33,872 nt of DNA from a virus. The notes under the pieces were generated by a model. The model was not told the origin of the DNA and ran no database searches. It worked only from the letters and a program-made list of their open reading frames with translations. Each line of letters opens with the position of its first letter. Position 1 is the stretch's first letter. The position numbers were made by a program, and so were the translations under genes. Positions 1,262 to 26,962 of this stretch are shown here, in pieces. Location of the stretch: positions 1-33,872 of the IMG/VR virus record IMGVR_UViG_3300046804_006776, one strand, 5' to 3'.

Positions 1262-1785
1262 TCGAACACCTATTACAGGATCCGGGATATAGGCGTGCTC
1301 GTGACTCGGGCTCGTGGTGGGTATGGCCTGCTCCTTGTAGTATAGAACCCCCTAGTTGGGAACAGTTATTGGAAAACATAGCATTCAGTAGCGCCCGCCG
1401 TGGGGAGTTGCGAGTGCTGAATAATTTGGGCTTTGTGGGCTATCATGCTCAACGCATACCCCTAGTGGGCTCAATACGTCGTGAGCTACAAACAGAATGC
1501 CCTGATACAGAAACCAGCGCACACCTATTCCTCAGCATGGGCCAACAGAGTGCGGGCTATGGGCGGCACAAAGATGACAGCGATCTATGGTTTTGGCAAT
1601 GCTACGGAACTACAGATTGGCGTGTGGAACACCCTGATGGAGACTTTGTGGGTACCCTGGGCCCGGGCTCTTGGATCTATGTACATAGGGAGCTCTATCA
1701 CACAGTACGCCCCCAGGGTGCTAGGGCCGCTATATCATTTGCCAATCATTACTTGATACCCAAGAACTCAATCAAACTCTTTTGA
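1258..1785 (+). CDS. cupin/JmjC-like Fe(II) oxygenase
   Basis: A 175-residue protein. A HKD triad at 104-106 is followed by WFWQCYGTTDWRV, a PGSWIYVHRELYH run ending in H148, and R156. HxD, then a strand pair with a tryptophan, then PG-D/S-x-x-YxPxxxxH resembles the JmjC/ribosomal-oxygenase type (YcfD, No66) of 2OG oxygenase core. The protein is much shorter than those families, which usually have extra winged-helix domains. It starts at an ATG whose ATGA overlaps the stop of the upstream oxygenase, indicating translational coupling. Its 3' end overlaps the convergent radical SAM gene by 37 bases. The substrate is unknown. A non-catalytic cupin is an alternative reading. Confidence 0.6.
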   Translation: MIEHLLQDPGYRRARDSGSWWVWPAPCSIEPPSWEQLLENIAFSSARRGELRVLNNLGFVGYHAQRIPLVGSIRRELQTECPDTETSAHLFLSMGQQSAGYGRHKDDSDLWFWQCYGTTDWRVEHPDGDFVGTLGPGSWIYVHRELYHTVRPQGARAAISFANHYLIPKNSIKLF

Positions 1786-3215
1786 TATTCGCGCTGTCTG
1801 TTAACTAGCAGTCTAGATATAGGGTATTTGCGATGTATGGCTTCCACGGACATGCTCTTCATTTCTTCTAGGCCGATACCCAGGTTAGCATAGTCCTGTA
1901 CATAAAACTCACTGATGCGAGCACGATCTTTGAACAGGCCTATGATCCTACTGCGCCAGCGGTCACAGACAGCATTGTCCAAACTATTAGAGGGTAGGCT
2001 CCAGCCTCGACCCACACGCTTGTATCCGTAGACATCTAAGTTTAAATTAAACTGGCTCCACCCATCTGATTGTGTAGCACCCTCGGGGGCTGGGGGTCCT
2101 AGCCATAGGGTATTGATGCTTAGGTTATCTACTGGACAGGCAGGGTCTGTTGCCCATGCTTCCAGTTCTTTGAAGTATTCTTCGGTATCATAAGGTAAGC
2201 CCAGGATAAGCCCCACTGATACTAGTACACGATCACCCCATAGGGCTCGTAGACGTACTAGCTCTGCCTTAGTACGCTTAGGGTCCAGCCCTTTGCCCAC
2301 GCATTGGGCTGACTTCTTGTTAAATGTTTCCACCCCAAAGAAACAGCCCACTAGGCCCATGTCTAATACTAGATCAGCAGTCTCGGGCCAACGCTCTATT
2401 AGATCCAGGCGTAGGAAACAGCTGAACTGGGGTTTAAAGGGTAGCGTCTTAAACATAGCATGTAGTTCAGCTAGACGCTCACGATCATCGTTAAACGTAT
2501 CGTCTGTAAAGTAAAAACGATTACAGCCCGTTGTAGCATGTGCTCGAAGCATTTGATCGCGTATCTGCTCTACAGGGCGTTGATAGGTGCCCTTCTTTTT
2601 ACCAATTAAAGGATAGCTACAGAACTTACATTGAAATATACAGCCCCGAGCCATTTCTATGGGTAGGGCTTCGTTAGGCAATAGGCAGTAGCTGGGATCG
2701 CTCCAATCAGTGTCAATATGTGCTGGGTCAGGCTCCGGATATGTGCGGCTGTCTACAAAACGTGGGGGTAGGTTACCCTGAGCTAGACTATGTGTATAGG
2801 CTATGACGCTGGTATCAGCATAGCCCGTGATGTAGGTATCTATGCGATCATCAAAGGCAAATAAGTGTGCGTAGGCGCCCCCGTAGACTAGCCAGGCCTT
2901 GCTACGGGCTTTGATATAGTCAAACAGCCAGTCCATATCGTTTAGTGATCTACTCCACATATGAGCCCTGGGGGTAGATGGGGGTGAGTTGCCAACCATG
3001 AATGTACTGGACCAGCCTACCCATAGGGTATCTGGGCCCAAGAGTTTATCCATTATTAGGGCTAGATCATTGCGTGACCAACTGCTGAACCACTCAACGA
3101 CCTGTACAGTATAGCCAGCATCTTTTAATGCTTGGGCTATTCTATAGGGTCCAAGGGTGCGCCTAAAAGAAAAGACATCTGTTGATTTGTCGTTGAATAA
3201 AACGACCTGCGCCAT
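1749..3215 (-). CDS. radical SAM protein with degenerate B12-binding-like N-domain
   Basis: A 488-residue protein. Residues 1-140 form an alternating strand/helix region of the B12-binding type found in many radical SAM methyltransferases and oxidases, but without the DxHxxG cobalamin motif. The radical SAM core starts with EMARGCIFQCKFCSYP, giving cluster cysteines C192, C196 and C199. FTDDTFNDD, GVETFN and GLPYDTEE stretches follow, typical of B12-type radical SAM cores. It is clearly paralogous to the protein at 11664-13202: both have RRTxGxxRIA near the N-terminus and RGCIFxCxFC. It starts at TAATG, overlapping the stop of the SPASM enzyme upstream in the operon. Reaction and substrate are unknown; peptide or glycan modification is an inference. 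Its DNA is richer in G+C than most of the window. Confidence 0.85.
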   Translation of the reverse strand: MAQVVLFNDKSTDVFSFRRTLGPYRIAQALKDAGYTVQVVEWFSSWSRNDLALIMDKLLGPDTLWVGWSSTFMVGNSPPSTPRAHMWSRSLNDMDWLFDYIKARSKAWLVYGGAYAHLFAFDDRIDTYITGYADTSVIAYTHSLAQGNLPPRFVDSRTYPEPDPAHIDTDWSDPSYCLLPNEALPIEMARGCIFQCKFCSYPLIGKKKGTYQRPVEQIRDQMLRAHATTGCNRFYFTDDTFNDDRERLAELHAMFKTLPFKPQFSCFLRLDLIERWPETADLVLDMGLVGCFFGVETFNKKSAQCVGKGLDPKRTKAELVRLRALWGDRVLVSVGLILGLPYDTEEYFKELEAWATDPACPVDNLSINTLWLGPPAPEGATQSDGWSQFNLNLDVYGYKRVGRGWSLPSNSLDNAVCDRWRSRIIGLFKDRARISEFYVQDYANLGIGLEEMKSMSVEAIHRKYPISRLLVNRQREYQKSLIEFLGIK

Positions 3216-4603
3216 TAGACAGCCTTGATGGGTATGATCTTTTGATTAGTTTCAGGACGCTCGCCACCTACCCACCAGAAGATATCCTTACGGTCTTCAC
3301 GTTGTGGGCCTTCGATGTATTTTGGGATCATGCCGGTCATGCTTTCAATAGCTGTGGCAAACATGACAATGTTGTCACTGAAGGCATTGTTACAGCTGGT
3401 TTCCCATAGGGGTCCGCTCAAGAACATACAAGCACCACGGCAGATGTGCAGCACAGGGCACTTAGGGCATTCTTCACGATCGCTCCAATGTGTGCTACTC
3501 TTTAGTTCTACAGCATCTAGATCGCTTACATGCCCTACCTTATGGCTAACTCCGGCTGGGTTAGTTGATACAGCCGATACGTTTTGGCAAGTTAATACAT
3601 TACCGTCCAAATCAACAGTCATGTTATCTGGCTGATCCATGCCGCACTTCTGACCCATGCCCGCACTCTTTAGTCCAAACCTAATACTCTGTACAAAGTC
3701 CGTAACCTTTTGTGAAATAACTCCAAAGCGTCTAGGTTGTTTATCGCGTATTTCCTGTAGGGCAAACTGACGATAGATAATCTGTTGCTTGTCTGTCATT
3801 AGACTGTTGGCCAGTCCGCCTTCATCGTAAGCATCGATAAACGCACCCTCGCCGATAGTTAGGTAGTCTAGCATATCATCGCCTAGCTCTTTGAGAATAA
3901 GCTCTTCAAACCATTGTTGGCATTCGGCACGACTAGCATTGCGAGCGTGTATCATTACATTGAAGCTGAAACGATTAGCGGGTGCTAGACGTTTGTATAA
4001 TTCTAGAATCCATTTACGGCTAACAGGATCTTCTAATGGATCTGGACCGCGTGTGCCTTGTCCAGGACCGTCGTGCGATACGGCAACAACAAAGTTAAGG
4101 GCATTTAACCAACGCACCTTTTCTTCATCAAGCAGACTACCGTTAGTAATAATGCTCTTGACAGCGTGTGGGTAACGACCGTGTATTAGTTCTGCTAGAG
4201 GTTTGAGTGTTTTCCAATAGACTAACGGCTCCCCACCCCAGAATTCGATTTTAGTGCTTTCACCCATGCCATCAGTTCCGCCGTTGAACCAGTTTTCCAT
4301 ATTGTCCACAAACGGTTTAATATCTTGAGGATTGTGTGATTCACTATGTGGGACGAAACGCTGATTACAATAGTCGCAGGCAAAGTTACACTCAAGACCC
4401 AATTGAATCTTTAGAATAACTGGTTGTTTACCCATTGGGATTTTAATTTGTCCTACATCAGGTTGATCTGCTACTTCTATATCTGTAAGAACAGGCTCTC
4501 GTGTATCAGCCCAGATCAATGTACTATCTGAATTGTCGTACTCCAATTGCCTTTCATGCGTATGATCGGCAGGGTTGTAAACAGTAACGGTAAATTTAGC
4601 CAT
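3215..4603 (-). CDS. radical SAM/SPASM enzyme (anSME / peptide-maturase-like)
   Basis: A 462-residue protein. The cluster motif LGLECNFACDYCNQ supplies C72, C76 and C79. A KIEFWGGEPL stretch is the SAM-amino-group GGE motif, and SIITNGSLL and VAVSHDGPG are further core motifs. The C-terminal third is a SPASM domain with a cysteine set (CGMDQPD, LTCQN, EECPKCPVLHICRGAC, TSCNNAF) that would ligate auxiliary Fe-S clusters. This domain order is that of anaerobic sulfatase-maturating enzymes and peptide-modifying maturases, which act on protein or peptide side chains. The ATG at 4603 is chosen over an in-frame upstream ATG at 4684 because it gives an 8-base overlap with the upstream gene and a normal N-terminus (MAKFTVTVYN). 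It sits in the same operon as the Asn-Cys protein at 7180-7467, a candidate substrate. Confidence 0.88.
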   Translation of the reverse strand: MAKFTVTVYNPADHTHERQLEYDNSDSTLIWADTREPVLTDIEVADQPDVGQIKIPMGKQPVILKIQLGLECNFACDYCNQRFVPHSESHNPQDIKPFVDNMENWFNGGTDGMGESTKIEFWGGEPLVYWKTLKPLAELIHGRYPHAVKSIITNGSLLDEEKVRWLNALNFVVAVSHDGPGQGTRGPDPLEDPVSRKWILELYKRLAPANRFSFNVMIHARNASRAECQQWFEELILKELGDDMLDYLTIGEGAFIDAYDEGGLANSLMTDKQQIIYRQFALQEIRDKQPRRFGVISQKVTDFVQSIRFGLKSAGMGQKCGMDQPDNMTVDLDGNVLTCQNVSAVSTNPAGVSHKVGHVSDLDAVELKSSTHWSDREECPKCPVLHICRGACMFLSGPLWETSCNNAFSDNIVMFATAIESMTGMIPKYIEGPQREDRKDIFWWVGGERPETNQKIIPIKAV

Positions 4604-5618
4604 ATGTGGGTGCGTCCTTAAAATATATGTTAGTGTAATTATCCAACAAAGCGAACCACTCGTGCTTTTTTGTGTAGAGTACACTAACTGCTTTGTCTTT
4701 ATACGATGTATAGTTGTTTGGGCCTATCCATCGATCTATTAATTGTCTCATTTGCCAACGATGTGTTAGATTGTCGGCAGGATCTAATTGTTTTGGTTCT
4801 TTGGTAGACATTGCCCATTGCTGGATTTCTGTGCTGTCAAAGAACGCATGAATTTCTCCGTAGTCCTTTAGGGGAAAGTAAATGTTCTGTTCGTACTTCA
4901 TTCCTTGCCAGGGGAAGTTAAACATCATAAAACATCTAAAGTCTTCTACAGTTTCTATTGTGCCAGGATATGCTCGAATGCTAGGATCTAGTATTTCTAA
5001 TATTTCCGGATCAACAACAGTCTTGTAATCTTTATGTATTGTTTCTAATGTGCCAAACTTAAATGGAGTGCCCGTGTTGTTAAACCAGTTGCCAGGACCA
5101 AATATTTGATTACCCAACATACCAGATACATATAGACATTCCTTGTTGGCCACAAGATCTAATCCAAATACACCTATTGTATATTTTACACGATCTCTAA
5201 TGTATTTGTCAAACAATTCGCCTGCTTCAATTATGCTGGCATAGGTTCCAAACACTGACACTTGTCCAGGTTGGGCATATTCTAATAAACACATTAAGGT
5301 AAACGTGCTGTCCAACCCTCCGCTCCATAATACAGTAATAGGTTTGTTTTGTGCTATCAGTTCCTGTGCTCGGATACGAGTAGCATCTTCAAAAGATATA
5401 ACTCTTGCTTCCGGTAATGGATCTAACAGTTTGATATTAAAGAAATGCGGCAACTGTCCTGTACGATCTATTTGGGCGTTAATGTGCTTGCCAAATACCT
5501 GTTGATATTTGTCGTATAGACCTACATCAATAAGAAAAGGGTCTAAGACCCTACTAGGTCTTCCTTTTATTAGTTTGGTTGTAAGTATTGGATTGTAAGC
5601 AATTATAGACTGTGTCAT
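4596..5618 (-). CDS. asparagine-synthetase-like PP-loop ATP enzyme
   Basis: A 340-residue protein. The ATP-pyrophosphatase P-loop is VLWSGGLDSTF (SGGLDST at 99-105). A second stretch, VSGMLGNQIFGPGNW (164-178), resembles the acceptor-site region SGxGxDExFGG of asparagine synthetase C-terminal domains. No N-terminal glutamine-hydrolysing Cys2 domain is present; the first 90 residues are unrelated. Enzymes of this class adenylate a carboxylate and transfer it to an amine or ammonia. Related stand-alone synthetase domains close the macrolactam ring of lasso peptides and build beta-lactams. It overlaps both neighbours (TAATG at its start), between a small unknown gene and the SPASM enzyme. Amidation, cyclisation or peptide ligation of a substrate made in the operon is inference. 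Confidence 0.75.
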   Translation of the reverse strand: MTQSIIAYNPILTTKLIKGRPSRVLDPFLIDVGLYDKYQQVFGKHINAQIDRTGQLPHFFNIKLLDPLPEARVISFEDATRIRAQELIAQNKPITVLWSGGLDSTFTLMCLLEYAQPGQVSVFGTYASIIEAGELFDKYIRDRVKYTIGVFGLDLVANKECLYVSGMLGNQIFGPGNWFNNTGTPFKFGTLETIHKDYKTVVDPEILEILDPSIRAYPGTIETVEDFRCFMMFNFPWQGMKYEQNIYFPLKDYGEIHAFFDSTEIQQWAMSTKEPKQLDPADNLTHRWQMRQLIDRWIGPNNYTSYKDKAVSVLYTKKHEWFALLDNYTNIYFKDAPTYG

Positions 5619-5929
5619 TACAATCTATTTACAAGGCGCAATGATAGTGTCCAGCGTCCTTGGGTTCTGTGTACAATAGGTAGACGGTTGTCTATTATAC
5701 GTTGTTTGTTATTTTGGACCCAGTCTTTCATTAATGGATCTAGGTTCAGTTCTGCTTCGGGAATAAACACTCCAGGCTGATCGTTGCGTAAGGGGCTAAG
5801 GCTAGAATACTGGAATATATCTTTTACTCGATAATATTCGTGATCGTTGTTTTCTGCTTCGGGTCCGGGATTAACATGTAACGGAACAGAGTCTATTGAC
5901 CAAACTGCTCCATCTATAAAAGGTTTCAT
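5618..5929 (-). CDS. hypothetical protein in the PP-loop/SPASM operon
   Basis: A 103-residue protein starting at the ATG at 5929, which overlaps the TGA of the virion-like gene upstream as ATGA. An in-frame upstream ATG at 5965 would cause a much longer overlap. No signal peptide or membrane segment is seen. Features are a proline-rich mid-section (HVNPGPEAENNDHEYYRVKD), the segment GVFIPEAELNLDPLMKDW and a basic C-terminus. I do not recognise it. Its place between a structural-type protein and the asparagine-synthetase-like enzyme allows two readings: a small virion accessory protein, or a partner of the modifying enzymes such as a leader-recognition or scaffold protein. Confidence 0.6.
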   Translation of the reverse strand: MKPFIDGAVWSIDSVPLHVNPGPEAENNDHEYYRVKDIFQYSSLSPLRNDQPGVFIPEAELNLDPLMKDWVQNNKQRIIDNRLPIVHRTQGRWTLSLRLVNRL

Positions 5930-7164
5930 GACAGGGTCTTTTCTACAGTCTCTGCGTTTGTCCAATATTTGAATCCTACCTTAGCACTAGCTACATCTCC
6001 CGGCTCTAGTGTAGTAGTCAGAATCTTAAATGTACCTGTGCCGTTAGTTAACTTAACTTCTAGGCGATCAGGAATACCGCACACTTGCTCTACATATAAT
6101 TTCTTTATGCTAGGATGTGTGTGGACCTGTACAGTGACAGGATCCCCTGCGGCAACATCACCGTCTGGAACAACACACCATACTTCTTCAATTAGTTTAT
6201 AAACAGGCTCTTTTACAGGACCAGTCCAGGAAGCCATTTGACTAGCAATGCCGGCAGCATCCCATTCTGATGCGCTAGGACCCCTTAAAAATTCATGTGG
6301 GGTTTGACTATTCATATACAAATGCCAAGACAATTGAGAAACAGACGTAAATGTCTTGTCATGAATGTAGACCATTATTGGAGTAGGTACTCTGTTAGAT
6401 GTTCTTTGCCCTTGTATAACAGGATTAATTTCGACTCCTGATCCTTTATTTTCAGTTGTTCTTTGAAATACCGGAACAAACCTATTCATGATCCATACTT
6501 TGTAGTTCTTGATTATAGTTGAAGTAGTCAACAAACGAACTTTATTCAAATAATCAAATTGGCTGAAGTTAAAACCATTAGATTGCGGAATTTTGTTTTC
6601 TTCAACATCAAATACGTCACACTCTAACGCAAACAACGATTGATCTACACTAGAAGGTGATGTTCTAAAGTTTTGAATATTAGCAATGATCTGTCCGCGG
6701 TTGTATGTAACAGTTGATGTGCTTTCTGTTGTTGCATCGACTAGATAAACTAATTGTACAGATGCTGTTGAAATACTGTTCGGGTTCTCTGGGTCAATGA
6801 CTGTAACAGTTGGCTGATAAATGTATCCACTCCCAGTTGTTGTAACAATCACATCAGTGATTGTTCCTGTGGTAATAACTGGTGTTGCTGTAAATTGTGT
6901 GCCACCTGCTACATCTGGAGAACTAAAAACAAGATAGGTAGAAGTTGATAATTCAGTTCCCCCAGAATCTACCTGAACAGCCTGTATACCGTAGGCAGAC
7001 TCTATAACATCTTCTTCAACTCTAAATTCAAAATTGTTTTGTTGGATGTTGATATAGAATTTTTGATCCTGGAACCGATTCATATCTGGGCGATACGTGA
7101 ATAGGCGTTGTCCTCGATCTTGCGGGACAAATTCTACTGACTGAGCTGAAGTAATTACGGGCAT
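5926..7164 (-). CDS. virion-type structural protein (fibre/neck-like)
   Basis: A 412-residue, beta-rich, Thr/Ser/Val-rich protein without signal peptide. Residues around 110-125 read VIVTTTGSGYIYQPTVTV, matching the 'GSGY..PTVTV' module repeated in many T4-like phage virion and fibre proteins. The N-terminal part (VEFVPQDRGQRLFTYRPDMNRF) and the C-terminal beta-rich part (PDGDVAAGDPVTVQVHTHP) look like assembly domains. It follows the Asn-Cys protein by 15 bases and is preceded by an AAGGA about 12 bases from the ATG. It overlaps the next gene by 4 bases. I infer a structural role from composition and this module; the exact virion position is unknown. Confidence 0.6.
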   Translation of the reverse strand: MPVITSAQSVEFVPQDRGQRLFTYRPDMNRFQDQKFYINIQQNNFEFRVEEDVIESAYGIQAVQVDSGGTELSTSTYLVFSSPDVAGGTQFTATPVITTGTITDVIVTTTGSGYIYQPTVTVIDPENPNSISTASVQLVYLVDATTESTSTVTYNRGQIIANIQNFRTSPSSVDQSLFALECDVFDVEENKIPQSNGFNFSQFDYLNKVRLLTTSTIIKNYKVWIMNRFVPVFQRTTENKGSGVEINPVIQGQRTSNRVPTPIMVYIHDKTFTSVSQLSWHLYMNSQTPHEFLRGPSASEWDAAGIASQMASWTGPVKEPVYKLIEEVWCVVPDGDVAAGDPVTVQVHTHPSIKKLYVEQVCGIPDRLEVKLTNGTGTFKILTTTLEPGDVASAKVGFKYWTNAETVEKTLS

Positions 7165-7179
7165 TTAAGTATTAATTCC

Positions 7180-7467
7180 TTAACAATTACAGTTACAGTT
7201 GCAATTGTAGCAATTGACGTAATAGTAGTACATTGTCCATCCAGCACAGTTTACTAGATAAATCTTAGGATAACAGTTACCAAAGCTGATGTTACCACAG
7301 TTACCAGCGCCGCCGTTTAACCAACCGACGTTGTAAGAGTTACGGTTTACTTCGTTAAAAGTGTTACCATATAGGTAACCGGAGTTGTTTGATAACTGGC
7401 TGATGTATCCTTGTAAGTTAACACCGCTGTTAAAAACGATACCATCGTTATAGATATATGTTGACAT
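7180..7467 (-). CDS. Asn/Cys-rich small protein ending in (Asn-Cys) repeats; candidate modified-peptide precursor
   Basis: A 95-residue protein with extreme composition: 20 Asn, 13 Tyr and 8 Cys, and only four charged side chains (D8, E39, R42, K68). All eight cysteines (57, 65, 74, 86, 89, 91, 93, 95) are directly preceded by Asn, and the last eight residues are four Asn-Cys pairs after a YYYY run. The N-terminal half has no cysteine and could act as a leader; the C-terminal 40 residues would be a core. It is the first gene of a minus-strand operon that also holds a radical SAM/SPASM enzyme, an asparagine-synthetase-like enzyme and a B12-type radical SAM enzyme, which would suit a ribosomally made modified peptide. 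A disulfide-rich or metal-binding tail-tip protein is a serious alternative, since a virion-type gene follows at once. It is preceded by a TAAATA late-promoter word. Confidence 0.7.
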   Translation of the reverse strand: MSTYIYNDGIVFNSGVNLQGYISQLSNNSGYLYGNTFNEVNRNSYNVGWLNGGAGNCGNISFGNCYPKIYLVNCAGWTMYYYYVNCYNCNCNCNC

Positions 7468-7497
7468 ATGAGTTTGGCCTAAAGTCCTTGTATAGGG

Positions 7498-7503
7498 TAT
7501 TTA
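7498..7503 (-). promoter_or_regulatory. T4-type late promoter word TAAATA
   Basis: The minus strand reads ACATAAATACCC, 30 bases before the ATG of the Asn-Cys protein. It is the probable main promoter of the operon running down to 1749, since the following genes are contiguous or overlapping. Confidence 0.6.
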
Positions 7504-7578
7504 TGTGTTTGTCAAAGTGATGTTTGGTAATTTATTTTGACAAAAAGATTTCATTCCGGGAGACTTTTACCAGAATAC

Positions 7579-7608
7579 TTGACAGATATATGCCAATTTT
7601 GCTACAAT
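7579..7608 (+). promoter_or_regulatory. sigma70-like promoter for the SleB-type hydrolase
   Basis: TTGACA at 7579-7584 and TACAAT at 7603-7608 are separated by 18 bases, close to the bacterial housekeeping consensus. They lie about 90 bases ahead of the hydrolase ATG, in the longest gene-free gap of the window (7468-7695). This contrasts with the late-type motifs elsewhere and suggests that host RNA polymerase transcribes the gene without phage late factors. A second TTGACA at 7537-7542 has no good partner. Confidence 0.5.
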
Positions 7609-7681
7609 TTAAGATTGTTGGAATTATATTATTACTTAACTGAGTCTAACAAGGCATAATTAATTACACGACTTTTAAAAA

Positions 7682-7687: not shown

Positions 7688-7695
7688 GCATACCA

Positions 7696-8588: not shown

Positions 8589-9145
8589 ACGTCCCATTTA
8601 GGGCATTGTTCATATTGTTCTAAAAATAGAGAGTGATCAAAAGACCAGACAGCGACTTGTCGGTCATGCCAACTTTGCTCACTTTCTAATTTTATTAGCC
8701 CTCGCTTACTCCAACTCTGTAACATCTTATTATGGCCCTTCATATACTGAGGTGGTTTAGATAGATCTACATTAACGTATGTAGAAATGTCCTTACCTTG
8801 TGTTTTTAACAACCAATTGATACAGGTAGGTAGAACTGTTTGAGAAACAATGTTTTGATGTTGCTCGTAAAATCCTCGAGGAGTCGGATTTATGGGAGAA
8901 TTATATTTTAAGACACACATCCTAGACATAATACTGTAGCCAGGAGCATTATATTTCTTAAGGCTGTGTACACCAAATGTTGCTATTGGATTGTTACCTT
9001 GGTAGACGATCCAATTATTAACCACAAGCTCTCCCGGCCAAAGAAATATTCTTGGGGATGTATGGAAGATGTAGCCTTCTTCGTACGCTTGCTTGAAGTA
9101 GGGCTTTAGATCTATACTAGGATTGTACTCAATAACTTTGAACAT
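8573..9145 (-). CDS. GNAT-like protein, paralogue of 19536-20090
   Basis: A 190-residue protein. It opens with MFKVIEYNPSIDLKPYFKQAYEEGY. A strand NWIVYQGNNPIATFGVHSL is followed by GYSIMSRMCVL, a layout that resembles the central strands of GNAT acyltransferases. A signature acetyl-CoA loop is not evident, so the call is tentative. It shares with 19536-20090 the start (YN-SLDL), the SR-CVL segment, QHQ-VSQ--LP-CI-W and a C-terminal Q-VWS/ELL region. In both places an HxD-type oxygenase gene abuts or overlaps it, which points to a joint function. It is the last gene of a four-gene minus-strand operon, and its first 34 bases overlap the upstream gene. Confidence 0.5.
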   Translation of the reverse strand: MFKVIEYNPSIDLKPYFKQAYEEGYIFHTSPRIFLWPGELVVNNWIVYQGNNPIATFGVHSLKKYNAPGYSIMSRMCVLKYNSPINPTPRGFYEQHQNIVSQTVLPTCINWLLKTQGKDISTYVNVDLSKPPQYMKGHNKMLQSWSKRGLIKLESEQSWHDRQVAVWSFDHSLFLEQYEQCPKWDVHFPS

Positions 9146-18610: not shown

Positions 18611-19101
18611 AAGAAACTATGGATCTAGTTTCTCCTAAATTAGTAGAGATACTAAACAGGAGGGCATCTGATTGGCTTTCCAATAAAAAGTTCTATCAAT
18701 TTGTAGAGAAGCAATCAGTTGGCGATATTAGAGAATATAAGAGTTATGAAGATTCAATAATGTCTAATCTATCATACTATGCTTCGCAGTTTAAGAGAAA
18801 TAGATATGATCCAAATTCAAACTATAAATTAGCATCTAAACTAATAATAGCGTGTCCTTGGTTTAGACAATTAAGACATAAAGACAGCAGTAATAAAGTT
18901 TTTAGTTTTGTAACTTATCTCAATGAAAGTAATAAAGGTACAAAAATACACTCACAAAAGACTGGAGGACAAACTGTAATCGTTCCTTGGCAAAAAGGTA
19001 AAACTGTGTTCTTTGCTCCCGGGGACAATACATGGCATTCTTGGTCAAGCAACAACAATTGGCGTGTTACTTTAATCAGCTTTGTAACCTATTCTAGCTG
19101 A
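18589..19101 (+). CDS. HxD-type 2OG-Fe(II) oxygenase-like protein
   Basis: A 170-residue protein. QLRHKDSSNKVFSFVTYLNE gives H97 and D99, a glycine-rich TGGQTVIVPWQKGKTVFFAPGD strand set follows, and NTWHSW gives H150, with R159 as the 2OG contact. This is the prolyl-4-hydroxylase-like layout. It overlaps the glycosyltransferase end by 22 bases, and its 3' end overlaps the convergent oxygenase gene by 30 bases. Probably the last gene of the 16013 operon. Confidence 0.75.
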   Translation: MEYPWQIKETMDLVSPKLVEILNRRASDWLSNKKFYQFVEKQSVGDIREYKSYEDSIMSNLSYYASQFKRNRYDPNSNYKLASKLIIACPWFRQLRHKDSSNKVFSFVTYLNESNKGTKIHSQKTGGQTVIVPWQKGKTVFFAPGDNTWHSWSSNNNWRVTLISFVTYSS

Positions 19102-19545
19102 TAATTCTTCATATGTTTCGTCAAATATTGATATCTTTAATAGGATGCGCTCAGTTGCTCCATTAGTAACAGAATGTGGTAATGTTGTATTCAACAACAC
19201 TTGCGTATAGAAATAGTCTTTTCCAAAGAATGTTATTGGTGCCGGGTCGTCACTTAATATAAAGTTAAGAGAACATTGTGTTCCGTTGTCTACATGTTTG
19301 GGTATAACTGAGTTTGGTTCTGTCCAATAAAACCTAGGCCTTCCGTCAATACCAAAATCGGACATAATCTTTTCAATGTGCTTATCAGTATAATGGCCAA
19401 TATACCAATTGTTCATCTGCATACCCGGATACCTAGCATCAGTGTAGGGATTGGCAAACTCTCTAGCACGTTTAGCTGATTCTAATAAGACAGCATTGTC
19501 TAAAGGATAGTTTAAGTGTACAAATAAGTTATCAGTCATTGCCAT
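19072..19545 (-). CDS. HxD-type 2OG-Fe(II) oxygenase-like protein
   Basis: A 157-residue protein. NSVIPKHVDNGTQCSLNFIL gives H84 and D86, LLNTTLPHSVTNG gives H124, and TERILLKISIF gives R133, a compact HxD...H...R site. Two starts are possible: the ATG at 19545, or the ATG at 19539 that overlaps the upstream stop as ATGA. The difference is two residues. It pairs with the GNAT-like gene upstream. This mirrors the 9112/8573 pair, except that the order is reversed. Confidence 0.75.
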   Translation of the reverse strand: MAMTDNLFVHLNYPLDNAVLLESAKRAREFANPYTDARYPGMQMNNWYIGHYTDKHIEKIMSDFGIDGRPRFYWTEPNSVIPKHVDNGTQCSLNFILSDDPAPITFFGKDYFYTQVLLNTTLPHSVTNGATERILLKISIFDETYEELSARIGYKAD

Positions 19546-20113: not shown

Positions 20114-20120
20114 TTGGCCT

Positions 20121-20126
20121 TAAATA
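20121..20126 (+). promoter_or_regulatory. T4-type late promoter word TAAATA (plus strand)
   Basis: GGCCTTAAATATGTCTATG: the motif ends at the A of one ATG and 5 bases before the next. By analogy with the 8367 and 16013 genes, the second ATG (20132) is then the likely start. Confidence 0.45.
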
Positions 20127-20131
20127 TGTCT

Positions 20132-20977
20132 ATGAACAGACGCGATTGGACAACTACTTTACCAAATAGTAATATACTAGATTTGTCTAGCAATATCTGT
20201 TACGACAAATATCTGAATATCGATACTGAACAAAACAATCAATGTTATCCAGATTCAAGTGAAGCATACAATTTGCTATCAAGTTATTATAACATAAGCC
20301 CGTATAATATAGCTATCGGATACGGCTCTTGCGAATTAATACTTCGAATACTTCAGGCGTATCGAGATTGGACTCTACATATTGTAACCCCAACATGGCA
20401 GCTGGCTGAACTCTATGCTTATCATATAGGAATGAAGCAACAGATAAATGCTGACATCTTATACATTGCTAACCCAAACGGCCTTACAGGACAAGCGTTG
20501 TCTGTTAAAGATATACTAGGAATGCTTCCGAATTATAAATTGGTAATTGTAGATGAAGCCTACGGAGACTTTAGCAACTGCTCAGTATTAAAGTATGCTA
20601 CAACTTCAGACAACTTGATTGTAGTAAAGACGTTGAGCAAAACTATTGCTTCTCCTGGTTTAAGATTTGGTTATTGTTTTTCCAACACAAAGATTATTAA
20701 ACACATACAAGATAGCCGACCGGGCTATGTAACAACTGGCGCAACAGTCAACGCATTGAAAAGGTTACTTCCTCATATTGACCTTCATGTTGCTCGTATG
20801 ATAGACACAAGAGATTACATAGAATCAAAGTATATGGTAGTACCGTCTGAAGGAAACTATGTTTTGTTTAGACAAGATCCGCACCTGCCTGTTGTTATGC
20901 GAGAAACTAATGGATTGTATCGAATGGCTCTAACAGATTTAACTACCTTTAAGGAATTGGAAAATGAATATCGATGA
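20132..20977 (+). CDS. PLP-dependent class I/II aminotransferase, HisC-like
   Basis: A protein of about 281 residues, short for histidinol-phosphate aminotransferases (about 350). Counting from the ATG at 20126, the features are NIAIGYGSCELILRI (cofactor-binding strand), TPTWQLAELYA, IANPNGLTG (N116), VIVDEAYGDF (D143), KTLSKTIASPGLRFGY with Schiff-base lysine K172, and R180. The start could be the ATG at 20126 or 20132; I use 20132 because of the promoter word at 20121-20126. It overlaps the next radical SAM gene by 14 bases. A role in making an amino sugar, amino alcohol or amino acid derivative for the operon is inference. Confidence 0.82.
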   Translation: MNRRDWTTTLPNSNILDLSSNICYDKYLNIDTEQNNQCYPDSSEAYNLLSSYYNISPYNIAIGYGSCELILRILQAYRDWTLHIVTPTWQLAELYAYHIGMKQQINADILYIANPNGLTGQALSVKDILGMLPNYKLVIVDEAYGDFSNCSVLKYATTSDNLIVVKTLSKTIASPGLRFGYCFSNTKIIKHIQDSRPGYVTTGATVNALKRLLPHIDLHVARMIDTRDYIESKYMVVPSEGNYVLFRQDPHLPVVMRETNGLYRMALTDLTTFKELENEYR

Positions 20978-21782
20978 GCTAAGGACATTACAAGAACAAG
21001 GTGTAAAGGACCTATGGTCTACATTGCGTAGTGTAGAAATAAATCCAACTGAACTGTGTAATAGAACGTGCTCATTCTGCCCTAGAACCGACCCTAAACT
21101 TTATAAAAATCGTAAGCAACACATTGATCCTAGCCTATGTATGCTAATAGGATCGCAATTACAAAACTTTACAGGTAGGATTGGGTTTGTGGGGTTTGGT
21201 GAGCCATTACTTCATCCAAACATTGTAGAGTGTGTTACTAACGTTAGAACAGGATGTCCTACAGCACAATGGATTGAAATTAATACTAACGGAGATGTAC
21301 TAACTAGAGATCTAGCTGTCGAACTAGCTGCCGCAGGATGTACAAATATTACAATTAGTATGTATGATAAAGACAATACAGATTATTTTACTGAAATGCT
21401 CGATGGAGTCAATGTTCAAATGATATTGCGACATCATTACAACACAGGTACAATGGGATTGATTAATAGAATTAATATCATTAGAAAAGATGGTAACATA
21501 CTAGAGGTTAATCGCCCTTGTTACAGGCCTTTCTATAAAATGTTTATAGACTGGAATGGAGACTTTTTATTGTGCGAGCAGGACTGGGGCAAAGTTACTA
21601 AGCGATATAATATATATTCGACTAATATTGTCGATTTTTGGTTAGATAAACTAAATCGATATAGGATAGAACTAATGGAAGGAAATCGAGTGTTAAGTCC
21701 TTGTGATAAGTGTGATATAAACGGAACCAAACACGGACAAGATAGTTTTAATATATTTTATGATCAACTTACTACAAAATAA
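20964..21782 (+). CDS. radical SAM protein with SPASM-type C-terminus
   Basis: A 272-residue protein, compact. The cluster motif is SVEINPTELCNRTCSFCPRTD (C32, C36, C39). GFVGFGEPLLHP is the GGEPLLHP-type SAM motif, and IEINTNGDVL and ITISMYDKD follow. A reduced C-terminal cysteine set (RPCYRPF, LLCEQDWG, SPCDKCDI) looks like a SPASM or twitch domain holding one auxiliary cluster. Enzymes of this type often modify peptides. It sits between an aminotransferase and the unknown cassette at 21760-22688, overlapping both. Confidence 0.85.
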   Translation: MNIDELRTLQEQGVKDLWSTLRSVEINPTELCNRTCSFCPRTDPKLYKNRKQHIDPSLCMLIGSQLQNFTGRIGFVGFGEPLLHPNIVECVTNVRTGCPTAQWIEINTNGDVLTRDLAVELAAAGCTNITISMYDKDNTDYFTEMLDGVNVQMILRHHYNTGTMGLINRINIIRKDGNILEVNRPCYRPFYKMFIDWNGDFLLCEQDWGKVTKRYNIYSTNIVDFWLDKLNRYRIELMEGNRVLSPCDKCDINGTKHGQDSFNIFYDQLTTK

Positions 21783-22506: not shown

Positions 22507-22688
22507 TACACATAAAAGTATACAATGAACTTAATGAGTTGATTTATGAAATTGACTGCCCATCGCTTGCTCTCATGAGCATGTATATGCTATGGTACTG
22601 TCCTACTACTACAAATAGACTCAAATTAACTTGGCCTAACGGAAGAACAATAACAACTGCGCTATCTAATCCTAATTGTTGGGGATAG
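22485..22688 (+). CDS. unknown small protein A2 of a duplicated two-gene cassette
   Basis: A 67-residue protein paralogous to 27702-27887. Both share a beta-hairpin start (HIKVYNELNELIYEIDCP against KLEIYKNGQLVKTFDCP), an invariant DCP, an AL-S-Y segment, a PF/PT turn and a C-terminal strand with IT. Neither has a signal peptide or membrane segment. Always downstream of and overlapping the larger partner gene, it may form a complex with it, or be a small carrier or substrate for the nearby radical SAM enzyme. The C-terminus NPNCWG is not conserved in the paralogue. Its 3' end overlaps the convergent oxygenase gene by 17 bases. Confidence 0.65.
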   Translation: MEYTDQVIHIKVYNELNELIYEIDCPSLALMSMYMLWYCPTTTNRLKLTWPNGRTITTALSNPNCWG

Positions 22689-22689
22689 C
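22661..22689. terminator. possible bidirectional hairpin at a convergent overlap
   Basis: GCTATC at 22661-22666 pairs with GATAGC at 22684-22689, with an inner CC/GG pairing and a T/A-rich loop. It sits exactly where two convergent genes end and could act in both directions. There is no clear T run, so this is weak. Confidence 0.25.
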
Positions 22690-23253
22690 ATTTATAACCA
22701 GATGTATTCGTTCAGTGTTGCCTGAGTTATAAACGAAATGATGTACAGTTGTATCAATTTTATAAAAATGACCATCTGCCGGAATATGATATCCTCTAAC
22801 TTGATAATCTTCTAAAGGTCCTACTGTTGTCGGAGTACAGATAAAACATCCTATATTAGTAGTAATTGCTAAATGGTATCTTTGCTCTGAATCTTGATGC
22901 ATCATAAGTCCAGTCTTTGGCATTAATCGCATTATTCTTACTCTTCCGGGAGTAAAGTTATGTTCCTTAGCAAGACTGTTGACTAATTCTATTAGATAGT
23001 TTGGCAACTCTTCATTCCATACTGTAAAGTCTGTTTCAAGTTTACCTGCTTGATTATCTTTGCCGCCGCCGCTAGCGTCTAACCATTTATTAGTGGCCGA
23101 TTGACGATGTGTTAATCCTATTTGATTTACAATGCTACAATCTTCTACAGATCCGTTAGGCCAGGGACGTATTGATAAAATACGTTCTATGCATTCTTTA
23201 ATGATTTCTAAGTTTGCTGTGTTATTCAGCTTTTTTATAAATTGATTTTCCAT
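22672..23253 (-). CDS. aspartyl/asparaginyl beta-hydroxylase-like 2OG-Fe(II) oxygenase
   Basis: A 193-residue protein. VRIMRLMPKTGLMMHQDSEQRYHLAI (written here in parts: RIMRLMPKTG, then MMHQDSEQRYH) gives H119 and D121. CFICTP and GYHIPADGHFYKIDTTVHH give the second strand set and H171/H172. NTERIHLVINAI gives R182. This is the Asp/Asn beta-hydroxylase (PF05118) pattern, in which the HxD is followed by R-H on the next strand. It is the last gene of a four-gene operon with three radical SAM enzymes, overlapping the upstream one by 32 bases. Peptide or protein side-chain hydroxylation is a reasonable inference. Confidence 0.83.
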   Translation of the reverse strand: MENQFIKKLNNTANLEIIKECIERILSIRPWPNGSVEDCSIVNQIGLTHRQSATNKWLDASGGGKDNQAGKLETDFTVWNEELPNYLIELVNSLAKEHNFTPGRVRIMRLMPKTGLMMHQDSEQRYHLAITTNIGCFICTPTTVGPLEDYQVRGYHIPADGHFYKIDTTVHHFVYNSGNTERIHLVINAIPNN

Positions 23254-24460
23254 CTATCTTGTTTAATGAGTAAATTCTATCTATTTTAGTTTCGCCGCCA
23301 CACATACTAGCACAAAAGGCTAACTTGCCGTTTGCTACAGTATCTATTTCCCAGGACTTAGCAAACACATTATCTAAATGTCCTGCGTCTAATATTTCTC
23401 GTAAGGTGTGTCTATTTAAATCAAAGTTATCCCATCCGTAATCATTCATATGTTTATGTAGTTGTAATGATTGGGTGTCTTTATATACTCCGTTTAGATG
23501 TGTTCCTACGTAACAGCAAGGCATTAATCTACCAAAATTATCTACAAAGATTTCCTTACCTGTATTACGCTTTGCTTTACATTGTATTGAACAGGCGTTT
23601 GCTTTACTATGATCTTCTTTTGCTATCTGAGTGTATACATATTCAACTCTAGTTGTGTATCCTGGATCGATCTCTTTGCTCTTAAGTTTGTTATAAACTG
23701 ATAGTTCCATTCCGAACCATACGGGCTTAGATCCTATAGGATTTTCCAAATTTCTATACTTTGGTATTGTAGGAGCTTCGATAGCATATTCAAGTACTCC
23801 TTCTCTGTTCATAGCAGGCATCGGTCGTAGGTATGTGCCGTCATCTACCCCTAGTGCTTTCTTAGGAATAAACATTTTAAATCCTGCTTGCTCGGAGTAT
23901 GCCTTGGCTTCGTCCACTTGATGTTCGTTATGCTTGAATATCAAATATTCCCAAACAGCAATTCCACCCCCTTTAATAAAGGCAGTAAAGTTGCTCTCTA
24001 GTGCTTTCCATTTAACATTACGTCTATATATATGATTAGTATCTTCTAGTCCGTCGATGCTGAATATTAACCTCCATCGACTATCGGCACTAGATCGTTT
24101 GCTAAACAACTGTCCAAACTTATACCACCAGTCTGGATTACGCATACCGCCGTTTGTATTAATATGGACTATTGTTTTACTGTCGATAGATTGTATGTAC
24201 TCGCATATCTCGTACAGGTCTTTGGCCATACCCGGATCACCATGTACTCCGCAGAACAAAAACATATTACATTGTTTTACTACATCTTCTGGAAAGTACT
24301 GTTTAAACTTGTCTATTGTAATTTGGCCTATCTCTAAATCAGGCCTTATTAATGGACTATTATGGTAATATCGCACACACATAGGACAAGCGGCATTACA
24401 CGCATTAGTTAATTCTACGTGTATTTGCGACAGTTCTGTGTTATTCCAAAATGCTGTCAT
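23222..24460 (-). CDS. radical SAM protein with C-terminal SPASM-like cysteines
   Basis: A 412-residue protein. The cluster motif HVELTNACNAACPMCVRY gives C21, C25 and C28. MFLFCGVHGDPGMAKD replaces the usual GGEPL with a GDPG form, and IVHINTNGGMRN and LIFSIDGLEDTN follow. The C-terminal third has ANACSIQCKAK, GRLMPCCYVGTH and AFCASMCGG, a SPASM-type cysteine set. It overlaps the twitch-type radical SAM gene upstream by 4 bases (ATGA) and the beta-hydroxylase downstream by 32. The substrate is unknown. Confidence 0.85.
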   Translation of the reverse strand: MTAFWNNTELSQIHVELTNACNAACPMCVRYYHNSPLIRPDLEIGQITIDKFKQYFPEDVVKQCNMFLFCGVHGDPGMAKDLYEICEYIQSIDSKTIVHINTNGGMRNPDWWYKFGQLFSKRSSADSRWRLIFSIDGLEDTNHIYRRNVKWKALESNFTAFIKGGGIAVWEYLIFKHNEHQVDEAKAYSEQAGFKMFIPKKALGVDDGTYLRPMPAMNREGVLEYAIEAPTIPKYRNLENPIGSKPVWFGMELSVYNKLKSKEIDPGYTTRVEYVYTQIAKEDHSKANACSIQCKAKRNTGKEIFVDNFGRLMPCCYVGTHLNGVYKDTQSLQLHKHMNDYGWDNFDLNRHTLREILDAGHLDNVFAKSWEIDTVANGKLAFCASMCGGETKIDRIYSLNKIDGKSIYKKAE

Positions 24461-25623
24461 TTAGTATACCCTATAATCTTAGCAAATTCTGGAAATGTAG
24501 TAGCATAATCCTCATTGCGATAATTGTCGGTTAGTCTAATTTCGTTCATTAATGTGTCCCACTGCTCAGTATTAGGAGTACCGTTTTCTATGAACTTAAT
24601 AATGCCCGATAATTGATTAGAATGTGACTTAGGAATAGTGTTTAGTTTGTCTATAACTATTTTCTTTACATTATCAGGCATACCACTAATATTAAAATGC
24701 TCGGGCCAATGAACTAAGTTTAAGTAAAGTGTTAATGATCCGCGAAATCTAGCATTAAAATAATTAATAATCTCGTCAAGATAAAAAATATTAAGAGCAC
24801 TGAGCGTAACACACCAAAACGGGCGCATATTACTATACGTCACTTCTGGGCGGCTCATATTAACAAGGACATCATTCCACACAGCTGGATGTCTCATATA
24901 TTCAAACCTTGACCCAACACCGTCAATACTAAATCCTAAATTAACTTGCTTGAAATGTTTCCATACTTCAGTTTCTACAGGCCAAACAGTTCCATTGGTG
25001 GCATAATTCAATGTCATGTCTTTGGCATACCCTAATTCAACTGTACGTTTTAAAACACTCCACATTTTTTTACTGAGCAGAGGTTCTCCTCCGTAAAAAT
25101 CAATTTTCTTAATAGTACTTAAACTATCTTCTAATTCTTTCCAAAACGTACTATCGTCGTCATAGCTATTAGAATAAGTTCTTATTTTTTTACGATATTC
25201 TTCTTTTGATACGACATTTACATATTTTGTATCATATAGCTCTTGAGCCCATTGGCTGCTTGAATGTGGAGCACAAGTTCTACATTTAATGTTACAAGTG
25301 TTGCCCATGTTAAGTTCAACATAGACTAATCCTTGTTGGTCTCTAGACCAATTGCTATTGTCTCTTATTCGTTTACTGTCTCGCCCAGCTTCTTCTTCTT
25401 TCCAGCATCGATTACACCCCGGGTGCTTTATTCCTTGAGATAACGCAGACCTTAACTCAACAAACTCCGATCCATTAAAATGGTCTAAGAGAGGAACCTC
25501 CCCTAATTTTGATTCTTTCCCGTTAGGAGTTCGAGTAAACATACAACAAGGTCGTGTTTTTCCATCATTTGATGAACTGATAGCATGGAACGCATTTATA
25601 CACCATGTATTAGAATTGGTCAT
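24457..25623 (-). CDS. radical SAM protein with N-terminal twitch domain
   Basis: A 388-residue protein. The N-terminal 90 residues carry the cysteine/histidine pattern of the N-twitch radical SAM group: WCINAFHAIS (C8, H13), RPCCMF (C26, C27) and HPGCNRCWKEEEAG (C70, C73) before a D-S-R stretch. The radical SAM core follows with VELNMGNTCNIKCRTCAPHSS (C110, C114, C117), IDFYGGEPLLS and LGFSIDGVG. The substrate is unknown for this group. It overlaps the next twitch-type gene upstream by 14 bases and the SPASM gene downstream by 4. Confidence 0.87.
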   Translation of the reverse strand: MTNSNTWCINAFHAISSSNDGKTRPCCMFTRTPNGKESKLGEVPLLDHFNGSEFVELRSALSQGIKHPGCNRCWKEEEAGRDSKRIRDNSNWSRDQQGLVYVELNMGNTCNIKCRTCAPHSSSQWAQELYDTKYVNVVSKEEYRKKIRTYSNSYDDDSTFWKELEDSLSTIKKIDFYGGEPLLSKKMWSVLKRTVELGYAKDMTLNYATNGTVWPVETEVWKHFKQVNLGFSIDGVGSRFEYMRHPAVWNDVLVNMSRPEVTYSNMRPFWCVTLSALNIFYLDEIINYFNARFRGSLTLYLNLVHWPEHFNISGMPDNVKKIVIDKLNTIPKSHSNQLSGIIKFIENGTPNTEQWDTLMNEIRLTDNYRNEDYATTFPEFAKIIGYTK

Positions 25624-26962
25624 ACGTATCCTTACACAATTGATAGAAGTCTTTATATTCAGGGAATGTTTCTAATAAATTAGTACCTAAGCGACGGTCG
25701 TTCTCTGTGAAGAATACATAAAAGTCTCTGCGTCCCCTACGAATACGTTCCGGATCGACTGGATTCTTACGCATATACTCAGTTACACGTTTAAACTTAA
25801 CTATCTCAGACTGTTGGAACCACTCGCTGTTGTCTTCCATAAACTTAACAGTATCATCCATGTATACCATAAAGTCTGGCGTAAGGATGTTAATCATCCA
25901 ATGTGGAGGATCCTTCAAGTATGGAATGTCTAAATGGAACGCATCAAACCCATAAGCCTTACGCCATTCGATTACTTTCTCTAGTAACTGTTTATAGTTT
26001 GTAACGCATAGTACATTAAAGGTACACATAAAGTGAATCTTCTTACCCACTTCGACTACCTTGAGCATATTACGTTCCCAATGCTCACAATTAAGACCTG
26101 TACGCATATACTCTGCTTGCGGTCCCCAGCTGTCTATGCTAGTAAATGTATTAAACTTCTTGATCTTCTTTTCTACAATTAGTTTGCGTACAGTCTCAAT
26201 TACACGATCAACACGATCAAACGATACGCCTAGGTTACTGTTAAGGCTAATCTCTAAGTCAGGCGCTGGCTCTTTGTCTAACAAATCAAAGAAGTCCATT
26301 GCTCCTTTATTCATTAAAGGCTCGCCTCCTGTGATGCGTAGTGTGTGTAGGTCCTTGCGTAGGTCTGGCCACCACTTCCAGAACGAATCGATATATGGAT
26401 TTTCGTCCTTTGGGCCGTAGTATGTTCCGTGCTCTAAGAAGCTAATGCTGTATTGCGGATGTGTAATATCGTAGTCGCCGTGCTTCTTTACTTCTTCCAT
26501 CCACATGGTGCTTGCTTGCGGGCCGCAATAGCCACAACGATAGTTACAGTTATTACCGAAACTAACTTCTAAATATTTTGGATTGATGGGAGCATTCCAA
26601 GGCATCTTTGCTAGTTCTTCGATAGCAGGGTCTGCCCACGTACTACCATTGTGTAAGATACGATCGCTAGCATGTTCACCTGGTAGGTCCTCGATGTTCC
26701 AACAATAGTAACATTCGCTAGGACGGTGTCCATTTAACATTTGCTTGCGCTGTTCCATCTTGTGTGCGGTATTGTGTAGAGCACTGGGATTGTTAGCAAT
26801 TTCGTCTAACTGGATGTGATGAGGTTTCGGATGATAACAACTATGGTTATCTCCTGTATGTAGGTACAACGTTTGATGTAGCCATTTCATAGTACAGTAA
26901 CCCGGACCTATTTGGTTTAACCGATCTCGTATGTTTCTGTAGAATTGAATTTGTTGTTCCAT
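25610..26962 (-). CDS. radical SAM protein with N-terminal twitch domain
   Basis: A 450-residue protein, first gene of the three-radical-SAM operon. The N-terminal twitch pattern is GYCTMKWLHQ (C23, H29), HSCYHP (C42, H44) and SECYYCWNIE (C84, C87). The radical SAM core motif is VSFGNNCNYRCGYCGPQA (C139, C143, C146), with LRITGGEPLMNKG, ISLNSNLG and FTSIDSWG. It is a distant paralogue of the following gene. The ATG has a TAAATA late-promoter word only 4 bases upstream, giving a leaderless-type start. Confidence 0.87.
   Translation of the reverse strand: MEQQIQFYRNIRDRLNQIGPGYCTMKWLHQTLYLHTGDNHSCYHPKPHHIQLDEIANNPSALHNTAHKMEQRKQMLNGHRPSECYYCWNIEDLPGEHASDRILHNGSTWADPAIEELAKMPWNAPINPKYLEVSFGNNCNYRCGYCGPQASTMWMEEVKKHGDYDITHPQYSISFLEHGTYYGPKDENPYIDSFWKWWPDLRKDLHTLRITGGEPLMNKGAMDFFDLLDKEPAPDLEISLNSNLGVSFDRVDRVIETVRKLIVEKKIKKFNTFTSIDSWGPQAEYMRTGLNCEHWERNMLKVVEVGKKIHFMCTFNVLCVTNYKQLLEKVIEWRKAYGFDAFHLDIPYLKDPPHWMINILTPDFMVYMDDTVKFMEDNSEWFQQSEIVKFKRVTEYMRKNPVDPERIRRGRRDFYVFFTENDRRLGTNLLETFPEYKDFYQLCKDTYDQF

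Follow-up and report, generated by a model that had tools for sequence, protein, structure and literature searches.

Peptide chemistry by radical S-adenosylmethionine (SAM) enzymes has been described for small ribosomal peptides and in the maturation of metalloenzymes and sulfatases. Several SPASM-domain maturases of ribosomally synthesized and posttranslationally modified peptides (RiPPs) act on cysteine-containing targets, and the proteusin (polytheonamide) pathway brings radical SAM enzymes, methyltransferases, and a 2-oxoglutarate (2OG)-type hydroxylase to bear on a single ribosomal product. Here, we analyzed a viral sequence of 33,872 nucleotides (IMG/VR record IMGVR_UViG_3300046804_006776, positions 1 to 33,872; hereafter, the window) that carries eight radical SAM genes, with a focus on the SPASM gene at positions 3215 to 4606. 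The enzyme family encoded by this gene is almost always found beside a tail protein with a repeated asparagine-cysteine end, a pattern suggesting that the phages alter their own tail proteins chemically.

Radical SAM genes have been reported in the covered portions of two studies of marine viral genes (PMC7150976, PMC9301287), and the available portions of a study on pelagimyophages describe a "host recognition cluster" with tail fibers, glycosyltransferases, and radical SAM cassettes (PMC7029224). RiPPs have also been mined in a phage-prokaryote context, and the covered passages of that work do not describe a tail/SPASM system (PMC11118758). Our literature search, with bioRxiv and most subscription papers outside its coverage, found no paper listed as linking phage-fiber cysteine tails with radical SAM enzymes.

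The SPASM enzyme and its operon

The SPASM gene belongs to a minus-strand operon running from position 7467 down to 1749. Its features, in minus-strand order, are as follows.

7498..7504, minus strand: ATAAATA, T4-type late promoter core, 30 nt ahead of the 95-amino-acid protein gene (heptamer count, position)
7180..7467, minus strand: 95-amino-acid protein ending in VNCYNCNCNCNC (also given as NCNCNCNC, NCYNCNCNCNC), the proposed substrate (open reading frame, ORF)
5926..7164, minus strand: Ig-like structural protein (Ig-like by eye; PHROGs, relatives)
5618..5965, minus strand: 115-amino-acid protein, with similar small proteins at the same place in loci L034 and L035 (by eye)
4596..5618, minus strand: PP-loop (SGGLDS) ATPase, asparagine/beta-lactam synthetase-like (sequence; weak fold matches)
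3215..4606, minus strand: radical SAM/SPASM enzyme of the tail-linked family (PF04055, TIGR04085, PHROG, fold model)
1749..3215, minus strand: second radical SAM enzyme, with B12-type resemblance, last gene of its operon (PF04055, CxxxCxxC, NCBIfam below cut-off)

The 95-amino-acid protein provides the single NCNC-stop site of the window, where 0.01 were expected. The C-terminal ~75 amino acids of the Ig-like protein recur upstream of radical SAM genes in relatives, and L034 and L035 retain the gene order of the operon up to the enzyme, with an additional DctP-like gene. The PP-loop protein was modeled with a mean predicted local distance difference test (pLDDT) score of 61, and its fold matches are suggestive at best.

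The 3215 protein scored 35 bits with the SPASM model TIGR04085 (cut-off, 27) and matched phrog_1802. Relatives were found at 30 IMG/VR loci and at 79 loci in bacterial genomes (Limnohabitans and other Burkholderiales, Alphaproteobacteria, and others), as well as in the isolated Achromobacter phages 2-1 (44%) and JWF (43%). SPASM domains follow a seven-cysteine pattern (C, GX4C, CX2CX5CX3C, C); in alignments of 46 family sequences, all seven of these cysteines and the radical SAM cysteines are invariant. Among the NCBIfam models of RiPP maturases, the best-scoring peptide maturases were PapB, nif11-type, and QhpD, all far below cut-off. The AlphaFold model of the protein (pLDDT, 91.6) had anSME, ChlB, CteB, TigE, SkfB, and SuiB as its nearest solved folds; with the exception of TigE, the titles of these structures name a peptide, precursor, RiPP, or sactipeptide. 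The first 60 residues of the model form three strands and no helix, no search specific to the RiPP recognition element having been made.

The operon is headed by ATAAATA, the core of the T4 late promoter consensus (TATAAATA). This heptamer is depleted in the window (4 sites versus 18.1 expected), and all four sites (7498-7504, 8355-8361, 20108-20114, and 33531-33537) lie 5 to 30 nt ahead of same-strand gene starts. For three control heptamers, 0/5, 0/13, and 0/10 sites fell within 60 nt of a gene start. CTAAATA was unsupported as a late promoter, with none of its five sites ahead of genes. The placement of ATAAATA suggests that the tail/enzyme operon is expressed late, alongside virion genes.

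Linkage of the enzyme family to cysteine tails

Proteins encoded upstream of the family enzymes end in CNCNCNC and variants, i.e., (Asn/Xaa-Cys)n, and the linkage of the two genes was observed from both search directions. Starting from the enzyme, the 3215 protein led to 30 viral loci, 23 of which extend at least 4 kb upstream; each of these 23 has an ORF with a cysteine tail no more than 5.5 kb upstream of the enzyme gene. In bacterial genomes, where 61 of the 79 loci have at least 4 kb upstream, a tail stands at the end of an upstream ORF in 43/61 loci, compared with 0/61 in the downstream control and 1/61 on the other strand; when runs followed by a Hint domain (see below) are counted, 49 of the 61 loci have a tail. 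Starting from the tail, we considered 93 pattern hits in fetched loci with at least 1.5 kb downstream: 59 of 67 in-frame tails are followed on the same strand, within 5 kb, by a family enzyme, versus 2 of 26 out-of-frame hits (Fisher P = 2.5e-13). No tail ORF occurred in 80 random viral loci (753 kb). Of the tail hits in radical SAM-bearing records (n = 50), 92% lie within 3 kb of the radical SAM gene, versus 21% of random positions; the PF04055 search covered the first 80 of 119 tail-pattern stretches. In a mixed set of 104 nonredundant loci with at least 4 kb upstream, drawn partly by the tail pattern itself, 85 have a C-terminal tail, 7 have a tail plus Hint domain, and 12 have none.

Synonymous codons are mixed in 56 of 59 NC runs, which indicates that selection acts on the protein and makes it unlikely that the tails arose by microsatellite slippage. 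Asn precedes 410 of 575 tail cysteines; the others mostly follow Ala, Cys, or Asp, with Gly also found. The tailed proteins and their neighbors match tail and tail-fiber PHROGs. Proteins ending in NCNCNC also occur without a nearby family radical SAM gene, in two size classes (~202 amino acids in L053, L102, L118, and L136; ~184 to 193 amino acids in L050, L091, L097, and L110). In a Parasutterella locus (L439, 2506-7053), two radical SAM genes lie next to each other, accompanied by genes for an Ig-like protein and three small Cys-rich proteins.

Hint domains and partner genes

At six bacterial loci (L392, L428, L429, L430, L432, and L433), the cysteine run is internal and is directly followed by a Hint-like CFPAGT/CFPAAT start; the four of these six proteins that were scanned matched Hint models below cut-off. 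Hint domains are commonly cut at their first residue, by which the cysteine tail would become C-terminal. Gene 27 of phage 2-1 matches Hom_end_hint (46.6 bits; cut-off, 32.1) beginning directly after its cysteine run, and JWF gp28 has the same layout of fiber, cysteine run, and Hint domain. In both phages, the radical SAM gene lies two genes beyond. A Hint (intein-like) domain was seen directly behind the cysteine run of a tail-fiber-like protein in L009 (9808-11250). In the GenBank record of JWF, the Hint gene and the radical SAM gene are each named on their own. In the portions available, JWF is handled as a siphovirus (PMC3899368, PMC7996906) and listed as temperate and UV inducible (PMC3899368); the words "radical" and "hint" are absent from those portions of PMC3899368, as are "radical SAM" and "hint" from those of PMC7996906.

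Partner genes were counted in 137 nonredundant loci (58 viral and 79 bacterial) of 164, after loci with identical enzyme DNA were dropped. The Ig-like protein was counted in 94 of them and 2OG-type oxygenase groups in 53 (14/58 viral and 39/79 bacterial loci); 21 loci have the PP-loop protein and 20 have a DctP-like protein. The oxygenases fall into four groups, of whose representatives two passed Pfam cut-offs, one matched weakly, and one had no match. The PP-loop protein and an oxygenase were together in 0 of the 137 loci, a pattern that may reflect lineage only in this mixture of viral and bacterial loci. The DctP-type solute-binding protein sits inside the tail/radical SAM module of T4-like phages (e.g., L024, 11694-12638), and five loci, L103 among them, have a gene resembling (by eye) a flavin adenine dinucleotide-dependent halogenase downstream of the enzyme.

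Other radical SAM genes of the window

The remaining radical SAM genes and associated features are as follows.

11664..13202, plus strand: radical SAM enzyme, B12-type resemblance (PF04055, NCBIfam below cut-off)
16013..17194, plus strand: radical SAM enzyme with HMPTM zinc ribbon, Tes/TrsS-like (Pfam, NCBIfam)
17178..17972, plus strand: QueC-like PP-loop protein adjoining the 16013 radical SAM gene (Pfam, PHROGs)
20114..20977, plus strand: HisC-like aminotransferase adjoining the 20964 radical SAM gene (profile matches)
20964..21782, plus strand: radical SAM enzyme with SPASM-like C terminus (Pfam)
23222..24460, minus strand: N-twitch-type radical SAM enzyme, below cut-off (PF04055, NCBIfam)
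24457..25623, minus strand: N-twitch radical SAM enzyme (NCBIfam above cut-off)
25610..26962, minus strand: N-twitch radical SAM enzyme with at least 152 relatives in IMG/VR (NCBIfam above cut-off)
27865..31689, minus strand: a methyltransferase-like and four glycosyltransferase-like genes, constant neighbors of the N-twitch genes (by eye, no Pfam match)
33546..33872, minus strand: HesB/IscA-type Fe-S carrier at the right window edge (PF01521)

A first-pass annotation of the window had listed eight radical SAM ORFs of at least four subtypes, not derived from simple recent duplication. All eight are open, match PF04055, and keep CxxxCxxC. Seven exceeded the PF04055 cut-off in a domain search of the window and five did so as single proteins; two of those below the single-protein cut-off pass the NCBIfam N-twitch model NF033640 instead (24457, 320 bits; 25610, 302 bits; cut-off, 170), with which 23222 scored 45.8 bits, below the cut-off. 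No stop was found within any of the eight domains, so the genes are not scattered relics with disrupted motifs. A single recent duplication was rejected as their origin, since the highest pairwise identity among the eight proteins is 26%. The subtypes were upheld in part: the SPASM assignment of 3215 and the N-twitch assignments of 24457 and 25610 are above cut-off, whereas the B12-type and Tes-like models are not. Specifically, 1749 and 11664 align to B12-radical SAM models, all below cut-off, and no B12-binding Pfam domain was found in either; 16013 has the HMPTM zinc ribbon above the Pfam cut-off, and its Tes/TrsS models fell below.

The N-twitch genes recur with the same neighbors. In 80 loci of 25610-like genes, relatives of 24457 were present in 80, of 28397 and 29224 in 75 each, of 23222 in 66, of 30212 in 64, and of 30913 in 62. 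The glycosyltransferase-like genes beside the N-twitch genes (75/80 loci) suggest that the enzymes encoded at 23222-26962 act on glycans, and the cassette at 23222-31689 with these partners is probably devoted to sugar or surface chemistry. One of the ATAAATA sites heads the strand with the N-twitch and glycosyltransferase-like genes (33507 downwards). Record G040 carries six N-twitch-like radical SAM genes in tandem beside the same glycosyltransferase-like genes, with a cysteine-tail module elsewhere; carbamoyltransferase-like and SGNH-like genes (by eye) were seen near this tandem (L158, positions 1-20000 of G040).

Pieces of the window middle (16013, 19536, and 10458, plus 11664 and/or 13977) recur in L243, L245, and L445. 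Such recurring gene blocks indicate that the genes are exchangeable cassettes, and the seven radical SAM genes other than 3215 sit in other cassettes of this kind. A search of viral contigs for relatives of the 13977 gene added little. Relatives of 19536 accompany the 16013 radical SAM gene in the same three loci, and 19536-20090 and 8573-9145 encode paralogous proteins (25% identity) with no assigned function. The HesB/IscA-type carrier fits a load of Fe-S enzymes; it is also present in the close relatives L163, L165, and L166. No tRNAs were found in the window, its long repeats comprise two imperfect pairs only, and a megablast search with its first 25 kb revealed no near-identical named phage.

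Oxygenase-like genes and the radical SAM load of the phage group

Eight Fe(II)-oxygenase-like proteins had also been annotated in the window.

551..1261, plus strand: PF13759 oxygenase-like (Pfam above cut-off)
1240..1785, plus strand: JmjC_2-like oxygenase (Pfam above cut-off)
9112..9786, minus strand: oxygenase-like by motif only (HID...H)
9779..10477, minus strand: PF13759 oxygenase-like (Pfam above cut-off)
15348..15968, minus strand: PF13759 oxygenase-like (Pfam above cut-off)
18589..19101, plus strand: PF13640 oxygenase-like, weak (Pfam below cut-off)
19072..19545, minus strand: oxygenase-like by motif only (HVD...H...R)
22672..23253, minus strand: Asp/Asn hydroxylase-like, PF05118 (Asp_Arg_Hydrox) (Pfam above cut-off)

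Five of the eight stand above Pfam cut-offs, but one is weak and two are recognizable by motif only. For the latter (9112 and 19072), searches of Pfam, PHROGs, and PDB sequences came back empty, and an attempt to establish 9112 as an oxygenase by BLASTP with 22672 gave short weak stretches only (best E value, 0.016). The HxD...H motif is present in 1240, 9112, 18589, 19072, and 22672. The three PF13759 proteins (551, 9779, and 15348) have HxH (by eye) at the first metal-binding position, where HxD/E is usual.

To place these counts, we compiled 48 related records (45 of 80 relatives of 25610 plus 3 of 16013), all of which were picked for holding radical SAM genes, so that their counts are conditional. 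These records have 2 to 15 radical SAM matches each (median, 4.5), and 7 of the 48 have eight or more. The random set comprised the 44 of 80 listed IMG/VR records that reach 27 kb, together 2.29 Mb by manual addition of their lengths, and yielded 4 PF04055 matches in 2 records, versus 8 in the 33.9-kb window. The window is ordinary within a radical SAM-rich phage group and extraordinary outside it: the dose of radical SAM genes is a trait of the whole group, not of a single contig. In IMG/VR, the 25610 protein has at least 152 relatives and the 16013 protein has 3. The gp23 major capsid protein of T4-like phages occurs in 16 of 30 long related records; the window is a fragment, and no capsid family was found among its ORFs scanned with Pfam, a gp23-specific search not having been made. 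PF13759 was present in 6 of the 48 related records (4 above cut-off) versus 2 of the 44 random records (0 above cut-off), and radical SAM genes and PF13759 oxygenases were therefore not upheld as one coinherited set in the co-occurrence survey that the first-pass annotation had called for.

A proposed role for the tail-linked cassette

We propose that the window belongs to a variable region for host recognition in a T4-like phage, made of exchangeable cassettes, in which the cassette from 7467 down to 1749 would serve as a late operon for an (Asn-Cys)n-tailed protein and a downstream radical SAM/SPASM enzyme that modifies the tail. The enzyme would abstract a hydrogen atom from a tail residue, thioether bonds would then form from neighboring cysteines, and the product would be a rigid cross-linked tip on a tail fiber or tail-associated peptide. 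Other lineages have a 2OG-Fe(II) oxygenase instead of the PP-loop synthetase, and some cap the tail with a Hint domain, presumably for later removal.

On balance, it appears fairly probable that the cassette encodes a cysteine-tailed protein and a SPASM enzyme modifying the tail, perhaps through thioether links. That enzymes of the 3215 family act on the cysteine tail is the likelier part, as action on the tail is the simplest account of the gene linkage. Analogy with the nearest families makes a thioether the most probable product, and we advance it tentatively, at somewhat below even chances. The tail modification may have a role in adsorption. A wider proposal comes close to an even call: that in phages and prophages of many bacteria, a dedicated SPASM enzyme together with an oxygenase or PP-loop synthetase would turn a fiber (Asn-Cys)n tail, sometimes Hint capped, into a cross-linked, RiPP-like host-contact tip. 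Several observations count against tail modification. The 95-amino-acid protein is an orphan, with no PHROG match and no tblastn homolog in the related loci examined, and the window's own operon contains no oxygenase gene. The 3215 protein reached no RiPP-maturase cut-off in NCBIfam (best, PapB with 55 of 340 bits). Twelve of the 104 loci of the mixed set lack a tail (L372, L394, L413, L420-L422, L424-L426, L431, L435, and L444), including a Bacteriovorax group, and 8 of the 67 in-frame tails, belonging to other protein families, lack the enzyme. Furthermore, 104 of 117 carriers fall into one similarity group, so the linkage could partly be an inherited, fixed tail locus.

The cysteine tail might instead bind metal or form disulfides by itself, with the enzyme acting on the Ig-like protein or a host glycan and neighboring the tail through the tail locus. 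The synteny of tail genes and the nearly equal constancy of the Ig-like neighbor (94/137 loci) speak for such another target, but we regard it as unlikely because the enzyme follows 59/67 in-frame tails and 2/26 out-of-frame hits, because tails that differ in carrier and sequence still lie upstream of the enzyme in viruses and bacterial genomes, and because Hint domains begin exactly where the cysteine run ends. It is quite conceivable that the enzyme acts on the tail without forming thioethers, through epimerization, methylation, cyclopropylglycine formation, or another radical reaction in which cysteine serves as a hydrogen donor or metal ligand. SPASM enzymes of similar fold do diverse chemistry, and the fold matches include TigE and the epimerase EpeE; however, cysteine is the sole constant tail residue, while the residue before it varies.

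A broader alternative assigns all eight radical SAM genes to ordinary auxiliary metabolism or surface-sugar chemistry within a T4-like host-recognition cluster, with no virion target for any of them. The radical SAM cassettes and glycosyltransferases in the covered portions of the pelagimyophage study (PMC7029224) and the glycosyltransferase-like companions of the N-twitch enzymes are in its favor, but it leaves the tail linkage of the 3215 family unexplained and seems decidedly improbable. Mis-assembly joining several phages would be the most far-fetched account. Of the window middle (8.6-22.7 kb), the closest relative, L163, has only an 11664 relative, and of the 1.7-7.5-kb operon only a distant 1749 match. 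Such mosaicism is expected of cassettes, and in G040 the cysteine-tail module and the N-twitch/glycosyltransferase array occur in one record. As L163 is an independent contig that unites the 22.7-33.9-kb region with genes of 7.7-8.6 kb, the assembly chimera considered in the first-pass annotation is not indicated. The earlier suggestion that these iron enzymes modify peptides, glycans, or metabolites finds support in parts: a peptide-like target for 3215 and glycans for the N-twitch enzymes are retained as suggestions, but not a single radical SAM/oxygenase set.

If correct, a family tied to phage-fiber cysteine tails would put radical SAM peptide chemistry on virions and account for a portion of the radical SAM load in aquatic T4-like phages. 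The idea is open to test in the already isolated Achromobacter phages JWF and 2-1.

Comparison with known systems

The pelagimyophage host recognition cluster resembles the setting of the window in being a variable island of T4-like phages with fibers, glycosyltransferases, and radical SAM cassettes, and differs in that cysteine tails are not mentioned in the covered portions of PMC7029224. Likeness to Hint/intein-type autoprocessing domains lies in the Hom_end_hint match of phage 2-1 gene 27. Unlike the known domains, those described here stand behind the cysteine tail of a fiber, their cleavage is presumed, and the window itself contains none. The combination of radical SAM enzymes and 2OG-type oxygenases recalls the proteusin pathway, from which our system differs in its enzymes and its phage tail locus, with no proteusin precursor seen. 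Further counterparts are the SPASM RiPP maturases (PapB, QhpD, CteB, SkfB, and SuiB) and the anaerobic sulfatase maturase, which share with the 3215 protein the radical SAM core and a SPASM domain with two auxiliary clusters and which are its best profile and fold matches. Unlike these maturases, the 3215 protein falls far below every equivalog cut-off. Its proposed target is a C-terminal (Xaa-Cys)n stretch on virion tail proteins of ~70 to 600 amino acids, in place of a short leader-bearing precursor, and the neighbors of its family are tail genes, Hint domains, and 2OG oxygenases or a PP-loop synthetase.

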